Of a DNA stretch of 41,030 nt, positions 15,030 through 21,390 are shown piece by piece; position 1 is the first letter of the stretch; the number at the start of each line of letters is the position of its first letter. The position numbers and the translations under genes were made by a program. The notes under the pieces were generated by a model. The model saw only the letters and a program-made list of their open reading frames with translations. It was not told where the DNA came from and ran no database searches. Source of the stretch: Pleurocapsales cyanobacterium LEGE 10410. GTDB taxonomy: Bacteria > Cyanobacteriota > Cyanobacteriia > Cyanobacteriales > Xenococcaceae. Location of the stretch: positions 1 to 41,030 of the forward strand of contig JADEXJ010000042.1 in the NCBI GenBank assembly GCA_015207195.1. The letters run 5' to 3'.

Positions 15030-16958
15030 ATGACAGAGCATTCTCATACTGGTATTCATCAGCCAGGGGACATCATTGATGGTAAATATCGCGTCACGGG
15101 GGTTTTGGGTAAAGGTGGAGTGGCGGTTACGTATCGAGCGATCGCACTTGCTACAGAAGACTCTGTGGCTGTTAAAGTTATCTCTCTCAAACAGCTTGGG
15201 GACTGGAAACAAATCGAGCTTTTTCAACGGGAGGCAGAAGTATTAGCCAAATTAGACCATCCTGCAATTCCCAAGTATATTGACTACTTCGATCTCGAAA
15301 CTGCTACAGATAAGGCTTTTTATATCGTACAGCAACAAGCACCAAGAAAGTCTTTAGCTCAGTTAGTCGAGTCTGGCTGGCGCACTAGCGAAGCCGAAGT
15401 AAAAAATATTGCCCGACAAGTATTAGAAATCCTGGCGTATCTCCACTCTTTAGATCCCCCTGTGGTTCATCGGGATATCAAACCCCATAATTTAATACGT
15501 AGCGACGACGGGAAAATATATCTAGTCGATTTTGGTGCAGTACAACACACTTACTACAACACCTTGATGCAGGGTAGCACCGTAGTTGGAACTTATGGCT
15601 ATATGTCTCCCGAACAGTTTCGCGGAAAAGCTTTACCCGCCACGGATTTATATAGCCTGGGCGCAACCTTACTTTATTTACTAACCCATAGATCCCCTGC
15701 GGAGTTACCCCAAGATACTCTCAAGCTTAATTTCCGTAACTCCGTCAATATTTCCGAAAGTTTTGCTGACTGGCTAGATAAGATTTTAGAACCAGATTTA
15801 GAAGATAGATTCGGTGATGCTAACGTTGCTTTAACCGAGCTATTTATTAGCAGAAGAAAGAAACAAAAAAAACTAATTACTGTTGTTGGTATTACGGTTT
15901 TAGCAGCAGGTTTAATTTTAGGTGTTAATTCCCATAAATGGTTCTTTCTTGGTCGCTTGGGTTTCTATCCTAATAATATGTCTTCTAATGAAGTTAGCCA
16001 TCGTTTTTTTCAACAAGGTGGCAATATAAACGATCTTAATAAAGCGGGATTAACCTCTCTATTTTTTTGCATTATTTGGGATAAAAATGAAAATATAGAA
16101 ATTGTCGAACACTTACTACTAAACAACAATTACCTCGTTCGGGTAGTTGATGTTTCTACTCCCGTGCGAATAGACAGAACAGCATTGCATATAGCTGTGA
16201 TGGAAAATAAATATGAAACAGCTAAGTTATTAATCGAATACGGGGCTGATGTTAATGCACCAGACATATCGGAGAAAACACCCTTGTTTTATGCAATATC
16301 AAATATGTCCTCTAATAAATATGGTGCATATTTTGCTAGAAAAAAAAGGAAAAATGATTTAGAAATTATCAAGCTATTAATCGATCGCGGTGCTGATATT
16401 AATTACAAAAACCATAGTCTTTTAGATTATGCGCTTCGCTACGATCTTACAGATGCTGCACAGATTTTAATCGATCGTGGTGCAGATGTTAATGCTCGCC
16501 AAATAAACGGACGAACTCCTATATTTGGAAATCACAATTTGAACATTGTAGAGATCTTAATAGCTAATGGTGCTGAGGTTAATATTAAAGATGATTATGG
16601 TCAGACTCCTTTACATTTTGTTAGAGATAAAGATACTGCTCGGATTTTAATTGACAATGGTGCTGAGGTTAACTCTAAAGATAATCGAGGTAAAACACCT
16701 CTGTTTCACAAAAAAAATATAGAGTTAGTAAAACTATTAATTGCTCATGGTGCAGATATTAATATCAAGAATAATCAAGGTCAAAGTCCGCTTTCCATAG
16801 CGATAGTTAGCAATAATAGAGATGTTGCACAACTATTAATTAGCAGTGGTGCAGATATCCATGATTTAAATCCAGAAAAAATTAAGCAGCTACATCACCT
16901 AAGCGAGCAACAATATTTAAAAGTAAAACAGTTTCTTCAAGAAAACAATTTTAAATAA
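15030..16958 (+). CDS. Ser/Thr protein kinase with transmembrane helix and ankyrin repeats
   Basis: The 642-aa protein has an N-terminal Hanks-type kinase domain (about residues 18-272): GKGG loop at 27-30, ATP-anchoring K49, catalytic H147-R148-D149, D167-F168-G169 and a YMSPEQF activation-segment end. A single hydrophobic helix (about 281-299) follows. The C-terminal half (about 340-630) contains repeated ankyrin units recognisable by the recurring pattern LLI..GADIN and GKTPLF / GQTPLHF. Topology is probably cytosolic kinase, membrane helix, then repeats on the other side or folded back. All catalytic residues are present, so it should be active. The stop codon abuts the next kinase's ATG (TAAATG), so the two are very likely cotranscribed. 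Substrate is unknown. Confidence 0.93.
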   Translation: MTEHSHTGIHQPGDIIDGKYRVTGVLGKGGVAVTYRAIALATEDSVAVKVISLKQLGDWKQIELFQREAEVLAKLDHPAIPKYIDYFDLETATDKAFYIVQQQAPRKSLAQLVESGWRTSEAEVKNIARQVLEILAYLHSLDPPVVHRDIKPHNLIRSDDGKIYLVDFGAVQHTYYNTLMQGSTVVGTYGYMSPEQFRGKALPATDLYSLGATLLYLLTHRSPAELPQDTLKLNFRNSVNISESFADWLDKILEPDLEDRFGDANVALTELFISRRKKQKKLITVVGITVLAAGLILGVNSHKWFFLGRLGFYPNNMSSNEVSHRFFQQGGNINDLNKAGLTSLFFCIIWDKNENIEIVEHLLLNNNYLVRVVDVSTPVRIDRTALHIAVMENKYETAKLLIEYGADVNAPDISEKTPLFYAISNMSSNKYGAYFARKKRKNDLEIIKLLIDRGADINYKNHSLLDYALRYDLTDAAQILIDRGADVNARQINGRTPIFGNHNLNIVEILIANGAEVNIKDDYGQTPLHFVRDKDTARILIDNGAEVNSKDNRGKTPLFHKKNIELVKLLIAHGADINIKNNQGQSPLSIAIVSNNRDVAQLLISSGADIHDLNPEKIKQLHHLSEQQYLKVKQFLQENNFK

Positions 16959-18380
16959 ATGAAATTAATCAGCGATCGCTATTCCATCCTTAACAAATTA
17001 GGACAGGGTGGAAGTGGTATTACTTATGCAGCAGTAGACAAAAAAACTGGCGAACAAGTTGCGATTAAGGCTTTATCTCTGACTGGGTTAGATGATTGGA
17101 AAAAGATCGAATTATTTGAACGGGAAGCCAAAATCTTACAACAATTAAATCATCCTGCTATTCCTAAATATATTGATTACTTTCAAGTTGAAACAGCCAG
17201 TGAGGTTTATTTTTATATCGTACAAGAATTAGCTCCTGGTCAATCTTTAGCGCATCTAATTAGTCAAGGTTGGCAACCAGACGAGCAAACAGTCAAAGAT
17301 CTTGCCCAACGAGTATTAGAAATATTAGTTTATTTACAGCAGCTAACCCCACCAGTAATTCATCGAGACATTAAACCAAACAATATTATTTATCAACCCG
17401 ATACGGGTAAACTATTTTTAGTTGATTTCGGTGCAGTACAGGATACTTATCACCATACGGTTATGGGTAGTACTGTAGTTGGGACTTATGGTTATATGTC
17501 CCCCGAACAGTTTCGCGGAGGCGCAACACTATCTACCGATTTGTATGGCTTGGGAAGTACTTTATTATTTTTATTAACTGGTAAGTCTCCTGCGGAATTA
17601 CCCCAAAAAAAGCTAAAAATTAAGTTTAGAAATACAGTGCAGATCGAACCCAGCTTTGCCAACTGGATAGATAAATTAATCGAACCAAATGTAAAGCAGC
17701 GTTTTCCTAAAGCTGAAGCAGCACTATTAGTATTACAGGAAAAGAAATCTCTTAAAGATTTTCATTATGAGCTTATAGTCAAGCCACGGTATAGTTCAAT
17801 AAAGATCGGTCAAATAGACGAACAATTGATTATCGATATTCCTCCGCCATACCAAAGAAAGCGAGTTAATTCCGTGTTCTATTTTTGGGCGGGATGGGGA
17901 GTTCTATCAATGTTAAACAGGCTGGCAATTCTAGTATCTGTTTTTTGGCTAGGTAAGATTTATCTAATTATCTGGTTTGCCAATATATTTTTAACTACAA
18001 AAAAGGATTCTGGTTACAAGTTGTTTGAGTATTTGTTGTTATTGTTGTTTGTTTTGGCGATCGCTTCAGGAAATATTTTGTCTATTCCCTCTTTTTCACT
18101 AGCTTTGATAGCGATAGATTTTGTCTTAGAATTATTTTTTAAGCATAATTTTATTCAGCAGTTGCTATTTACAACTCAGATTCTCTTTGAGGGCGATCGC
18201 CTTACCGTTGCTAAAAAAGTTATCCAACACTGGCATCAAGAATCTTTCAGGTATAAAGCTGTAAAAATATCTTTACCAAAGGTTTTTTTGACTAGTCAAG
18301 AAACAGCCTGGCTACAAGCAGAAATAGAAGAGTTTCGCGCTTCACTGTCTAACCATTGTCTACAATCTGAAAAATTATAA
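16959..18380 (+). CDS. Ser/Thr protein kinase with C-terminal membrane domain
   Basis: The 473-aa protein has a kinase domain at about residues 7-250: GQGGSG loop at 15-20, K37, H135-R136-D137 and D156-F157-G158. The domain is closely similar to that of the preceding kinase; the segments DWK.IELF.REA.IL..L.HPAIPKYIDYF and GSTVVGTYGYMSPEQFRG recur, which points to tandem duplication. The C-terminal part differs completely: a beta-like segment (HYELIVKPRYSSI) around residue 270, then about four hydrophobic helices (about 305-395) and a soluble tail. It starts at the base after the previous stop, which implies translational coupling. The two kinases may receive different signals and act on shared targets; that is inference. 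Confidence 0.93.
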   Translation: MKLISDRYSILNKLGQGGSGITYAAVDKKTGEQVAIKALSLTGLDDWKKIELFEREAKILQQLNHPAIPKYIDYFQVETASEVYFYIVQELAPGQSLAHLISQGWQPDEQTVKDLAQRVLEILVYLQQLTPPVIHRDIKPNNIIYQPDTGKLFLVDFGAVQDTYHHTVMGSTVVGTYGYMSPEQFRGGATLSTDLYGLGSTLLFLLTGKSPAELPQKKLKIKFRNTVQIEPSFANWIDKLIEPNVKQRFPKAEAALLVLQEKKSLKDFHYELIVKPRYSSIKIGQIDEQLIIDIPPPYQRKRVNSVFYFWAGWGVLSMLNRLAILVSVFWLGKIYLIIWFANIFLTTKKDSGYKLFEYLLLLLFVLAIASGNILSIPSFSLALIAIDFVLELFFKHNFIQQLLFTTQILFEGDRLTVAKKVIQHWHQESFRYKAVKISLPKVFLTSQETAWLQAEIEEFRASLSNHCLQSEKL

Positions 18381-18516: not shown

Positions 18517-18802
18517 GAAGCGATCGCAGCTAAGGTCAAATTGAGATCTATTTGATCGTCAATATATTCAATAATCAGCCCTTTGGGGGGATTTCCCGAA
18601 CCAGATCGCTAATTTTCAAAGTCGGGCAATCAAACGGATTTAAGATCACAAGTTTACACAGATGCCATAGTTGTTGTGCAACTATCGCCAAGAGAACCTT
18701 AACAACAAACTGATAAATAGCTAATAAAATTAATATTGTAAAACAAAAGAATCTTACGACTGATGATAGAGGGTTTAAAAAATATATTTCGTTACATTGA
18801 AG
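18510..18802 (-). pseudogene. Possible frameshifted gene remnant, unknown family
   Basis: On the minus strand one frame is open from 18802 to a TGA at 18575-18577 (76 codons). It is hydrophobic first, then reads LVILNPFDCPTLKISDLVRE. At the six-G run 18585-18590 the neighbouring frame continues in protein-like fashion (PKGLIIEYIDDQIDLNLTLA) to a TAG at 18510-18512. That stop comes from the end of the repeat element. There is no ATG or GTG at a sensible N-terminus, and the frame overlaps the hli upstream region. A single-base indel in a truncated gene would explain this. I do not recognise the protein, and it could still be chance. Confidence 0.3.
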
Positions 18803-18885: not shown

Positions 18886-19041
18886 ATGCAAACTCCAGTT
18901 CAAACTCCAGAACCAAAATTAGGATTCACTAGATTCGCTGAACTGTGGAACGGTCGTCTAGCCATGATTGGCTTTGTATCGGCTATACTTGTAGAAATGG
19001 CTACTGGTCAAGGTATTTTGGGGCAATTAGGTATCATGTAG
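18886..19041 (+). CDS. hli: High-light-inducible protein (HLIP, one-helix CAB-like)
   Basis: The 51-aa protein contains the chlorophyll-binding signature [17 protein letters not shown] (about residues 18-34). The E..NGR..M pattern in the single transmembrane helix is diagnostic of HLIPs/SCPs. HLIPs bind chlorophyll and carotenoid in the thylakoid membrane and quench excess energy, often associated with photosystem II or chlorophyll synthase. The N-terminus ([18 protein letters not shown]) is the usual short stromal extension. A GAGG ribosome site lies about 11 bp before the ATG. An HLR1-like site upstream and a hairpin terminator downstream suggest a single-gene, high-light-regulated transcript. 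It lies 209 bp before the cytochrome b6-like gene. Confidence 0.93.
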
Positions 19042-19110
19042 TAGTCTAGCTAGATTATCGATCTAATTACTCCACAATTTGAATCGATGTTTTTTCAGCG
19101 ACTGTAAAAT

Positions 19111-19164
19111 ATAAGAGAGAGTAGGTTGTTGGATAATTAATCCTGCCGAAATCTCTTATTTTTT
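19111..19164 (+). terminator. Terminator after hli
   Basis: ATAAGAGA (19111-19118) pairs perfectly with TCTCTTAT (19152-19159), and an inner GGAT/ATCC stem sits in the loop. A T-rich tail (TTTTT, 19160-19164) follows. It is 70 bp past the hli stop. Confidence 0.55.
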
Positions 19165-19250
19165 ATCAATAGCACTTCATCATCTTCCTAAATTATCCAG
19201 TCTTTAATTAATGAGAATGTGGTACTGCTTCCCTCACACCACGACTAACA

Positions 19251-19922
19251 ATGAATTTTCAACCAAATTTTGTTTTACGGCGAACGGCAACTATCCTATC
19301 AGTAGCAACAATAACCTTGGCATTTATAGCAGCTATATCGGGTATCTTAATTGGATTTAATTACGAACCCACAGCGGGTAATGCCTATCGATCTTTAGCG
19401 AAAATTATCAACGAGATTCCTAATGGCGGTTTTATTTATAGCCTACACAATTTAGCGGGTAACGGAATTATTGTGGTGGCTTTGATTCAGCTCGTGGTTA
19501 TGTTTTTGGGCAGACAGTTTAGAAGTAGCTGGTTAACTGCCTGGATTAGTGGGATCTTGCTAACGCTATCGACCATTGGTTTGGGTTGGACGGCAATGAT
19601 TCTTGGCTGGAATCAGTTGGGCTATTGGCGTTTGAAAGTAGAATTGGGAACGATCGCCTCTATTCCATTAATCGGAGAAACCGTTGCTAATGTTCTCACG
19701 GGTGGAGGAGGAATCAATACCACAACTATTATACGTTTTTATACAATTCATAGTTATGTTCTTTCCCTGGCTGCGATCGCCTTTGCCATAATTCATTTGG
19801 TAGCTTTAATAATTCAAGAACAAGAATCAAAATTATCTGTTCGACAGTTGGAAAAACTAATTGCAACTATAAAACTCGAAAAACAAACAACAGCAGCAGA
19901 AAATGCCCCCAGTAATATTTAG
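19251..19922 (+). CDS. Stand-alone cytochrome b6-like protein with one heme ligand replaced
   Basis: The 223-aa membrane protein aligns along its length with cytochrome b6. NYEPTAGNAYRSL corresponds to the YYKPTVTEAY region, IYSLHNLAGN to the helix-B histidine, LGWNQLGYWRLKV to the GYSLPWDQIGYW loop, and RFYTIHSYVL to the helix-D histidine. Heme-ligand positions are H66, H167 and H182, but the fourth (14 residues after H66) is Q80 instead of His. By analogy with b6 this breaks the pair (H100/H202 in b6) that binds the stromal-side heme bn. The cysteine that binds heme cn in b6 is also absent. There is no petD neighbour, so it is not the cytochrome b6f subunit itself. It overlaps crtW by 20 bp, suggesting coupled expression. 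Confidence 0.85.
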   Translation: MNFQPNFVLRRTATILSVATITLAFIAAISGILIGFNYEPTAGNAYRSLAKIINEIPNGGFIYSLHNLAGNGIIVVALIQLVVMFLGRQFRSSWLTAWISGILLTLSTIGLGWTAMILGWNQLGYWRLKVELGTIASIPLIGETVANVLTGGGGINTTTIIRFYTIHSYVLSLAAIAFAIIHLVALIIQEQESKLSVRQLEKLIATIKLEKQTTAAENAPSNI

Positions 19923-20673
19923 TCAATCTATGTCCGATGAGACTGCGGTAAATTTAGCCAATCCAGATAGTTCCTTAGTTAGTTTGACTATAGCTATTAC
20001 AATTCTATTTCTTTGGTTTGCCAGCCTGATATTTTTTTTGAGGCTAGATCTTTCCAATCTTTCCTTGATTCTAATAATTTTGGGAATGTGGCTAAGGTCT
20101 TTTCTACATACGGGAATATTTATTATCATTCATGAATCCATACATGGAGTTGTGGCACAAAACCAAAGAGTTAATGATTTTATGGGCTATCTAGCTTCAT
20201 TTTTGTATGCCCTGTTGCCCTATAAAACCCTCACCAAAAATCATAGACAACATCATCGCTGTCCCGCCACTACCGAAGATCCCGACTTTTATCCAGCAGA
20301 TCCCAACAACTTTTTTCTCTGGTATGGCAGCTTTATGAAAGACTACCAGAAGGGGATGCAGTTCTGGATTTTGTTTTGGGGGATGACGGTTTTTTTCTGG
20401 ATTTTTATCTTCCTGCATATTGCGATCGCCAATATATTTTTGTTTTGGGTAATTCCCATTGTGATTAGTTCTTTGCAACTATTTACCTTTGGGATATTTC
20501 TGCCCCATCGTCACCGAAAAGAAGGTTATCGCGATCGCCATCGCGCCAAAAGCAATGACTATCCCGTGTTTTTATCTTTTATTACCTGTTATCACTTTGG
20601 CTACCATTGGGAACACCATCAATATCCTCACCTGCCATGGTACAGACTACCCCTAGCTCGCCAAAAAGCCTAA
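19903..20673 (+). CDS. crtW: Beta-carotene ketolase, CrtW type
   Basis: This membrane di-iron oxygenase adds 4-keto groups to beta-carotene rings, giving echinenone and canthaxanthin. At 256 aa it has CrtW length. The histidine boxes are HESIHG (HxxxH), NHRQHHR (HxxHH) and YHFGYHWEHHQYPHLPWYRL (HxxHH). CrtW-typical blocks such as SSLQLFTFGIFLPHR and FFLWYGSFMKDY distinguish it from generic fatty acid desaturases. The frame starts at ATG 19903, inside the end of the cytochrome b6-like gene; ATG 19930, eight bases past that gene's stop, is an equally possible start. Ketocarotenoids are the cofactors of orange carotenoid protein, but no ocp gene is in the window. Position next to hli supports a photoprotective role. 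Confidence 0.85.
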   Translation: MPPVIFSQSMSDETAVNLANPDSSLVSLTIAITILFLWFASLIFFLRLDLSNLSLILIILGMWLRSFLHTGIFIIIHESIHGVVAQNQRVNDFMGYLASFLYALLPYKTLTKNHRQHHRCPATTEDPDFYPADPNNFFLWYGSFMKDYQKGMQFWILFWGMTVFFWIFIFLHIAIANIFLFWVIPIVISSLQLFTFGIFLPHRHRKEGYRDRHRAKSNDYPVFLSFITCYHFGYHWEHHQYPHLPWYRLPLARQKA

Positions 20674-20814: not shown

Positions 20815-21390
20815 ATGGCAGCAACATTAGATGCCACCAAAAAAAATGCGATCGCTACCAAGTTAGCAGACATGAAAGCTCTGCAAAACTTAATGATCTC
20901 TAATCAAGAAAAACTCTTAGCAGCAAGCAAAGATAACCAGAAAGTTACGGAAACGCTAACAGATATGTTGGAAGACGATCGCAAAAGTTTGACTGCGATC
21001 AATGAAGCTATTACCGAACTAGAAATGTCTTCTGACCCTAACGATACAGTAACCAATATGATTCAGACTATTGAAGGCGTAATGTCTGAAGATAGCATGA
21101 GTCTATACGAAAAATTTATGCAGCATGAGGGTTTAAAACACCAGTTAACCATGACTGGTTTATTAGTCCACAAAGCAGCTCAAGCAACCGATGGCATTCT
21201 ACAGAAATTAATCGATCCCATCAACAAAGTAAATTTCAAAAATCGCGCCCACCAAGAGCAATTAAAAGGTGCCATCTACTTTTACGGTGTCCGCCAGTTA
21301 GTCGGAGAAGAACCCGAAGCTGGGATTTGGGCAGCAGCAGAAGATGCAGTTGCAGCACTTAAAGGTGCGTTTGGTGGTTTGACTGAATAA
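20815..21390 (+). CDS. Helical protein of unknown function (possibly hemerythrin/ferritin-like)
   Basis: The 191-aa protein is soluble and almost entirely helical. It begins with TLDATKKNAIATKLADMKAL, then MLEDDRKSL, a His/Glu-rich middle (LYEKFMQHEGLKHQ, H104, E105, H109, and LVHKAAQATD, H119) and NRAHQEQLKG (H146, E148). It ends in a glycine-containing tail. The spacing of His, Glu and Asp on the helices would allow a metal site. I recall similar cyanobacterial proteins being loosely annotated as hemerythrin-like, but no strict HHE motif is visible. A good AGGAG ribosome site lies 12 bp before the ATG. It is 141 bp downstream of crtW on the same strand and could belong to the same unit. Confidence 0.75.
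   Translation: MAATLDATKKNAIATKLADMKALQNLMISNQEKLLAASKDNQKVTETLTDMLEDDRKSLTAINEAITELEMSSDPNDTVTNMIQTIEGVMSEDSMSLYEKFMQHEGLKHQLTMTGLLVHKAAQATDGILQKLIDPINKVNFKNRAHQEQLKGAIYFYGVRQLVGEEPEAGIWAAAEDAVAALKGAFGGLTE

Follow-up and report, generated by a model that had tools for sequence, protein, structure and literature searches.

A cyanobacterial family of cytochrome b6-like proteins in which the stromal heme site appears to be dismantled

Few redox scaffolds are as conserved as cytochrome b, whose heme ligands are generally regarded as fixed. A gene of Pleurocapsales cyanobacterium LEGE 10410 encodes a cytochrome b6-like protein with glutamine at the position of one of these ligands, which raises the questions of whether the replacement is genuine, how far it extends among relatives and what such a protein could do. 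Here, we report an analysis of this gene and its family. The gene lies in a 41,030-nucleotide stretch of DNA (GenBank assembly GCA_015207195.1, contig JADEXJ010000042.1, positions 1 to 41,030, forward strand), which is referred to below as the window.

Family sampling

Relatives were collected by a scan of genome contigs, in which 80 of 104 relatives were retained, and by a search of the cyanobacterial phylum, giving 110 family open reading frames (106 distinct, including that of the window). Duplicates, both pieces of a broken copy (L002) and a petB gene (L003) were excluded from the 106-member set; three further copies, one each in genomes G019 and G289 and the second of G062, were left outside it. 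The record titles of L020 and L048 name noncyanobacterial metagenome bins, and these are probably misplaced contigs. Controls were 21 petB genes, from 20 genomes picked among carriers of the family plus the window's own genome.

With the window protein as query, family members score at least 212 bits; below them come matches that are cytochrome b6 by score, at most 103 bits, with no intermediate among the matches listed. At E under 1e-50, 32 of the 386 cyanobacterial genomes searched carry the family, the window's own genome among them. A plasmid search for annotated relatives matched 2 of 72,556 records, both distant. No description of the family was found, by title or abstract start, among the listed papers on cyanobacterial cytochrome b6/petB paralogs; literature searches on b6-like proteins of cyanobacteria and on heme-ligand evolution returned nothing, and passages of PMC6616624, PMC9720722 and PMC12032549 contain no information on it. 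Within the literature covered by these searches, the family is undescribed.

The broken copy, L002 (G000:C221:5565-6071, minus strand), is a second family gene of the window's genome, with 69% identity across residues 4 to 172. It contains an in-frame TGA and lacks the C-terminal end; the examined stretch around it has no hli or crtW match. Four members (L033, L071, L080 and L081) have an N-terminal extension of ~70 to 110 residues. Upstream of these extended forms lies a PadR-like regulator (assigned from a single Pfam test, in L033), which immediately precedes the family gene in L033, L071 and L081; L080 has two open reading frames, reverse transcriptase-like by eye, between regulator and family gene.

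Protein and fold

The gene and the codons discussed below are as follows.

19251..19922, plus strand: cytochrome b6-like protein of the Q80 family, 223 amino acids (PF00033 match, b6 alignment, AlphaFold, Foldseek)
19446..19448, plus strand: His66 codon, equivalent to b6 His86, a heme bp ligand (1vf5 alignment, family column)
19488..19490, plus strand: Gln80 codon CAG, replacing the b6 heme bn ligand His100 (1vf5 alignment, family column, petB controls)
19734..19736, plus strand: Arg162 codon (Arg in 21/21 petB, His in 100/106 family members)
19749..19751, plus strand: His167 codon, equivalent to b6 His187, a heme bp ligand (1vf5 alignment, family column)
19794..19796, plus strand: His182 codon, equivalent to b6 His202, a heme bn ligand whose His partner is now missing (1vf5 alignment, family column)

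Pfam, AlphaFold and Foldseek all indicate the four-helix fold of the cytochrome b N-terminal region. The window protein matches PF00033 (cytochrome b N-terminal) with 86.3 bits (cut-off, 27.2). Its AlphaFold model (pLDDT, 90.8; pTM, 0.80; input alignment of 52 family sequences) has four membrane helices, the last of them long (main helices at 5-37, 59-86, 92-118 and 157-218), and each of its ten best Foldseek matches in the PDB is a b6 chain (TMq, 0.69 to 0.73; rmsd, 1.8 to 2.3 Å). The closest PDB sequence by phmmer is Mastigocladus cytochrome b6 (1vf5; E 5e-27). This alignment, of query residues 19-186 with chain residues 39-206, sets the equivalences used here (H66 = H86, Q80 = H100, H167 = H187 and H182 = H202) and agrees with the earlier note, which had aligned three retained ligand histidines and Q80 by eye. 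The N-terminal stretch of b6 is absent from the window protein, and identity to the petB product of its own genome is 28%. The protein is a variant of the cytochrome b fold and not PetB.

Stromal site

Column 80 of the family alignment holds Gln in 99, Asn in 3, Glu in 2 and Asp in 2 of the 106 distinct members, window included, and never His; the corresponding His100 column is His in 21/21 petB controls. Because the column is conserved in the family, Q80 is no sequencing error. Error and pseudogene are likewise ruled out when purifying dN/dS is added to this conservation (0.069 to 0.131 between the window gene and four cluster relatives, at a dS of 1.2 to 1.9, near saturation). The heme cn cysteine, already reported as missing in the earlier note, is indeed gone: b6 C35 aligns with I15 in the multiple alignment, and the column, Cys in 21/21 petB, is Cys in 0/106 family members, which have Ile, Val, Leu, Thr, Ala or Phe instead. 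The window protein thus lacks both a complete set of four histidines to ligate hemes bp and bn and the Cys35 of heme cn.

Other residues around the site have changed as well. Relative to b6, G37 is replaced by Ser (79) or Ala (27) and R103 by Val (105) or Ile (1) among the 106 members, and R207 by Leu, Ile, Val or Met in 102/106 (the rest being Thr, Phe and two gaps); all three residues are kept in 21/21 petB, where no variation is seen in the four His, in the Cys or in any of the four compared arginines. In b6f, R207 holds a heme cn propionate (PMC9342900). Judged by these residues, the stromal site (hemes bn and cn) is dismantled across the family, and its dismantling probably predates the divergence of the known members. 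The site may still hold something, given that His182 is retained in 99/106 members and column 80 is always polar (Gln, Asn, Glu or Asp).

Rhodobacter capsulatus offers a comparison, its H212 being a residue that we take to be the equivalent of b6 H202. The His-to-Asn change at this heme bH ligand (H212N) is termed a heme bH knock-out in PMC4807273; there too, an n-side heme ligand is swapped for an amide side chain, but the source describes a laboratory mutant with impaired function, with the change at that heme's other ligand, whereas in the present family the replacement is the natural, conserved state.

Lumenal site

Both lumenal histidines, H66 and H167, are present in the window protein. 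The pair is intact in 93/106 members and lacks one partner in 13/106, with at least one of the two in 106/106. His66 is replaced by Tyr in 2 members, His167 by Asn in 11 and His182 by Asn in 7; all three occur together in 87/106. The single heme proposed in the earlier note is therefore plausible for the window protein itself, but does not carry over to the family as a whole, with its 13 members short of one ligand.

We take R83, R103 and R182 of b6 to be holders of b-heme propionates, and its glycines presumably serve in heme packing. On the lumenal side, the R83 column is variable (Arg in 26 and Lys in 3 of 106), R182 has become His in most members (the window protein, with Arg162 as in petB, is an exception in its own family) and G135 has become Ala in 102/106; Gly31 (b6 G51) is kept in 106/106. 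With R83, R182 and G135 altered and one His missing in some members, even one heme may be absent. At column 112 (b6 G132), within a membrane helix, Gly is found in 21/21 petB and in the window protein; 58 of the 106 members have Asp and 21 have Ser.

Ligands have been lost repeatedly. The fewest changes needed are 2, 6, 6 and 3 for columns 66, 80, 167 and 182, respectively, on a quick maximum-likelihood tree (ligand columns excluded) in which 49/106 inner branches are weakly supported. Pairwise dN/dS is 0.039 to 0.183 (34 pairs) in ligand-loss groups, which also contain some members with all three His, and 0.036 to 0.109 (21 pairs) in all-three-His controls; the upper end is slightly higher in the loss groups, and selection is clearly purifying in both sets, so members without a complete lumenal pair remain under selection. 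Ordered by conservation, these four columns come only 33rd, 68th, 71st and 58th of 183, behind 19 invariant columns (e.g., R11, T14, W94, W98, W113, W120, W126, R127, E131 and P139). Replacements at the ligand columns are nevertheless all polar (Asn, Gln, Glu, Asp or Tyr) and never hydrophobic among the 106 members.

Ligand columns that change again and again under purifying selection, and that are outranked by so many others, would suit a scaffold without any cofactor, such as a regulator that binds quinones or lipids and whose remaining histidines are structural or relics. Three His together in 87 members are many for relics at such divergence, however, and column 80 has stayed polar, and we regard this explanation as unlikely.

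Gene neighborhood

Three features near the cytochrome gene bear on its possible role.

18886..19041, plus strand: high-light-inducible (Hli) one-helix protein (PF00504, 25.7 bits; cut-off, 22.3)
19105..19165, plus strand: terminator-like hairpin whose 3' arm is rich in T, lying after hli and before the cytochrome gene (z, -2.96; 2/200 shuffles as good)
19903..20673, plus strand: CrtW-type beta-carotene ketolase (NCBIfam CrtW, 274.3 bits over residues 17-253; cut-off, 350)

A crtW start at 19903 would give a 20-base overlap with the cytochrome gene; a start at the in-frame ATG at 19930 would instead put 7 bases between the two genes. As the ketolase scores below the equivalog cut-off, it is called CrtW-type; it is the only strong CrtW match in the genome, the sole other one being distant (27% identical). 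The order hli-cytochrome-crtW occurs in five Pleurocapsales-type genomes, with spacings to crtW of -20 (window), +96 (L004, where crtW is cut by the contig end), +17 (L005), +18 (L006) and -14 (L007) bases. A single operon of the three genes is weakened by the hairpin, and hli is probably terminated separately from the cytochrome-crtW pair; a GC-based terminator scan did not pick up the 19105..19165 hairpin, and similar letters are seen, in an alignment by eye, in L007 and, weaker, in L004. The chlorophyll-binding motif of the window Hli looks intact by eye. In the hli frames of L005 (5735-5854) and L006 (1210-1362), the motif is lost by eye; the cytochrome and crtW frames there are open.

The sequence TGATAGAG at window positions 18764-18771 recurs upstream of hli in each of the five clusters. 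We also considered, and rejected, an HLR1 light-response element in front of hli: scored against the consensus, 14/16 positions agree in L007 and 13/16 in the window, and other stretches also reach 10 to 13. Downstream of crtW, window positions 20815-21390 encode a 191-amino-acid protein of no clear family, with a 76% identical counterpart downstream of crtW in L007. Positions 15030-18380 hold two consecutive serine/threonine kinase genes; the second matches PF00069, and the first has ankyrin-like repeats by eye.

Across the 110 loci (a few counted twice, e.g., L007 and L084, which are the same contig, and some with short flanks), crtW adjoins the family gene in 6 (five genomes), an alpha/beta hydrolase match lies upstream on the same strand in 78 and an antiporter faces the family gene in 72. 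The window genome has no match to the hydrolase that neighbors most relatives; the same query matches in 81/386 genomes. A function of this hydrolase as chlorophyll dephytylase is unsupported, with weak lipase-like matches only.

In place of heme b, the scaffold might bind chlorophyll or a different five-coordinate tetrapyrrole that lacks two propionates. Each former ligand column would then offer one Mg ligand (His, Asn, Gln, Glu or Asp) and the propionate arginines would be dispensable, which fits the polar-only replacements, the lumenal pocket that always keeps a His, the mostly replaced arginines R83, R103, R182 and R207 and the hli neighbor in five genomes. Gln is also an axial ligand of chlorophyll. 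Asn, Glu and His serve as such ligands in a light-harvesting complex (PMC12148475). Yet a bis-His lumenal pair, unneeded by chlorophyll, persists in 93 members, Asn, Tyr and Asp are each one base from His codons, so that the pattern may be partly mutational, and two of the five clusters have a decayed hli; we consider chlorophyll in place of heme quite unlikely. A fuller version, in which the b6 fold became a chlorophyll- or pigment-binding photoprotective membrane protein whose gene was recruited next to hli and crtW in Pleurocapsales, draws on the lost propionate anchors and on ligand columns drifting among His, Asn, Gln, Glu and Asp, and seems to us distinctly unlikely. Hli itself, a pigment-binding stress protein, is a genomic neighbor in five genomes but a different family, with one helix and ~50 residues.

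In the earlier note, the protein was suggested to supply electrons to the adjacent ketolase, as a one-heme donor. Some link to crtW is favored by the overlap, or spacing of at most 96 bases, in five genomes and by co-occurrence: crtW is present in 24/32 genomes with the family and 48/354 without, in 17/24 and 1/18, respectively, within the family coded f6, and in 10/14 and 1/9 at the genus level there (Fisher p 0.009). Genome size and habitat or ecology are confounders that may explain this co-occurrence, though. Of the 72 genomes that have a CrtW match, 48 lack the protein, and crtW is missing from 8 of the 32 family genomes. Electron donation is further disfavored because the lost heme site is the stromal one and the di-iron active site of CrtW is presumably stromal too, so that a donor of this kind would face the wrong side. 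With crtW adjacent at so few loci, the proposal is unsupported, and we consider it improbable.

Relation to the b6f complex

The petB gene of the same genome is normal, with all four His and the Cys, and the genome has one PF00032/petD match, on contig C115, close to this true petB; the window gene is not paired with any petD. A b6f subunit with its own PetD is thereby ruled out. Having no PetD of its own beside an intact petB in the same genome, the protein should work outside b6f, as the earlier note had anticipated. Like PetB, it has a four-helix bundle and lumenal cd helices, and it keeps counterparts of H86, H187 and H202 and the G51 glycine; it differs, with its family, in lacking His100, Cys35, R103 and R207 and in the replaced G37, and on its own in its low identity to the own petB product, the nonadjacent petD and the long last helix. 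Another short cytochrome b, the ExtP type (NCBIfam NF040969), gives the best NCBIfam score, but its 113.9 bits are far under the 290-bit cut-off, and no ExtP-type operon was seen around the window gene.

An alternative b6 that replaces PetB, giving a complex with a broken Q cycle, would have the right fold, and b6f mutants with a damaged stromal heme can reportedly grow, but the divergence from the own petB, the absent N-terminal stretch, the lack of an own petD and the missing heme cn site make it highly improbable.

Interpretation

We favor, as the probable explanation, a repurposed b6 scaffold that carries at most one lumenal-side tetrapyrrole and acts outside b6f, perhaps in photoprotection. 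The family would have split from cytochrome b6, retaining the four-helix bundle while its stromal cofactor site was dismantled, and, with no PetD partner of its own, would function apart from the complex. The lumenal histidines, His66 and His167, would enclose at most one tetrapyrrole, which in the window protein would most likely be one bis-His heme b. Because the stromal heme appears to be gone, no electron path across the membrane is expected, and the protein would be a single-cofactor membrane protein or scaffold rather than an electron wire. The tight cytochrome-crtW gene pair downstream of hli points to photoprotection in five Pleurocapsales-type genomes, and in these only, as most loci have other neighbors; the decay of hli in L005 and L006 argues against it.

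These genes should not be annotated as cytochrome b6. They form a natural family in which the stromal heme site appears lost throughout and lumenal ligands have been lost singly and repeatedly, with purifying selection kept, and so provide material for asking what a cytochrome b bundle does with one cofactor or none.
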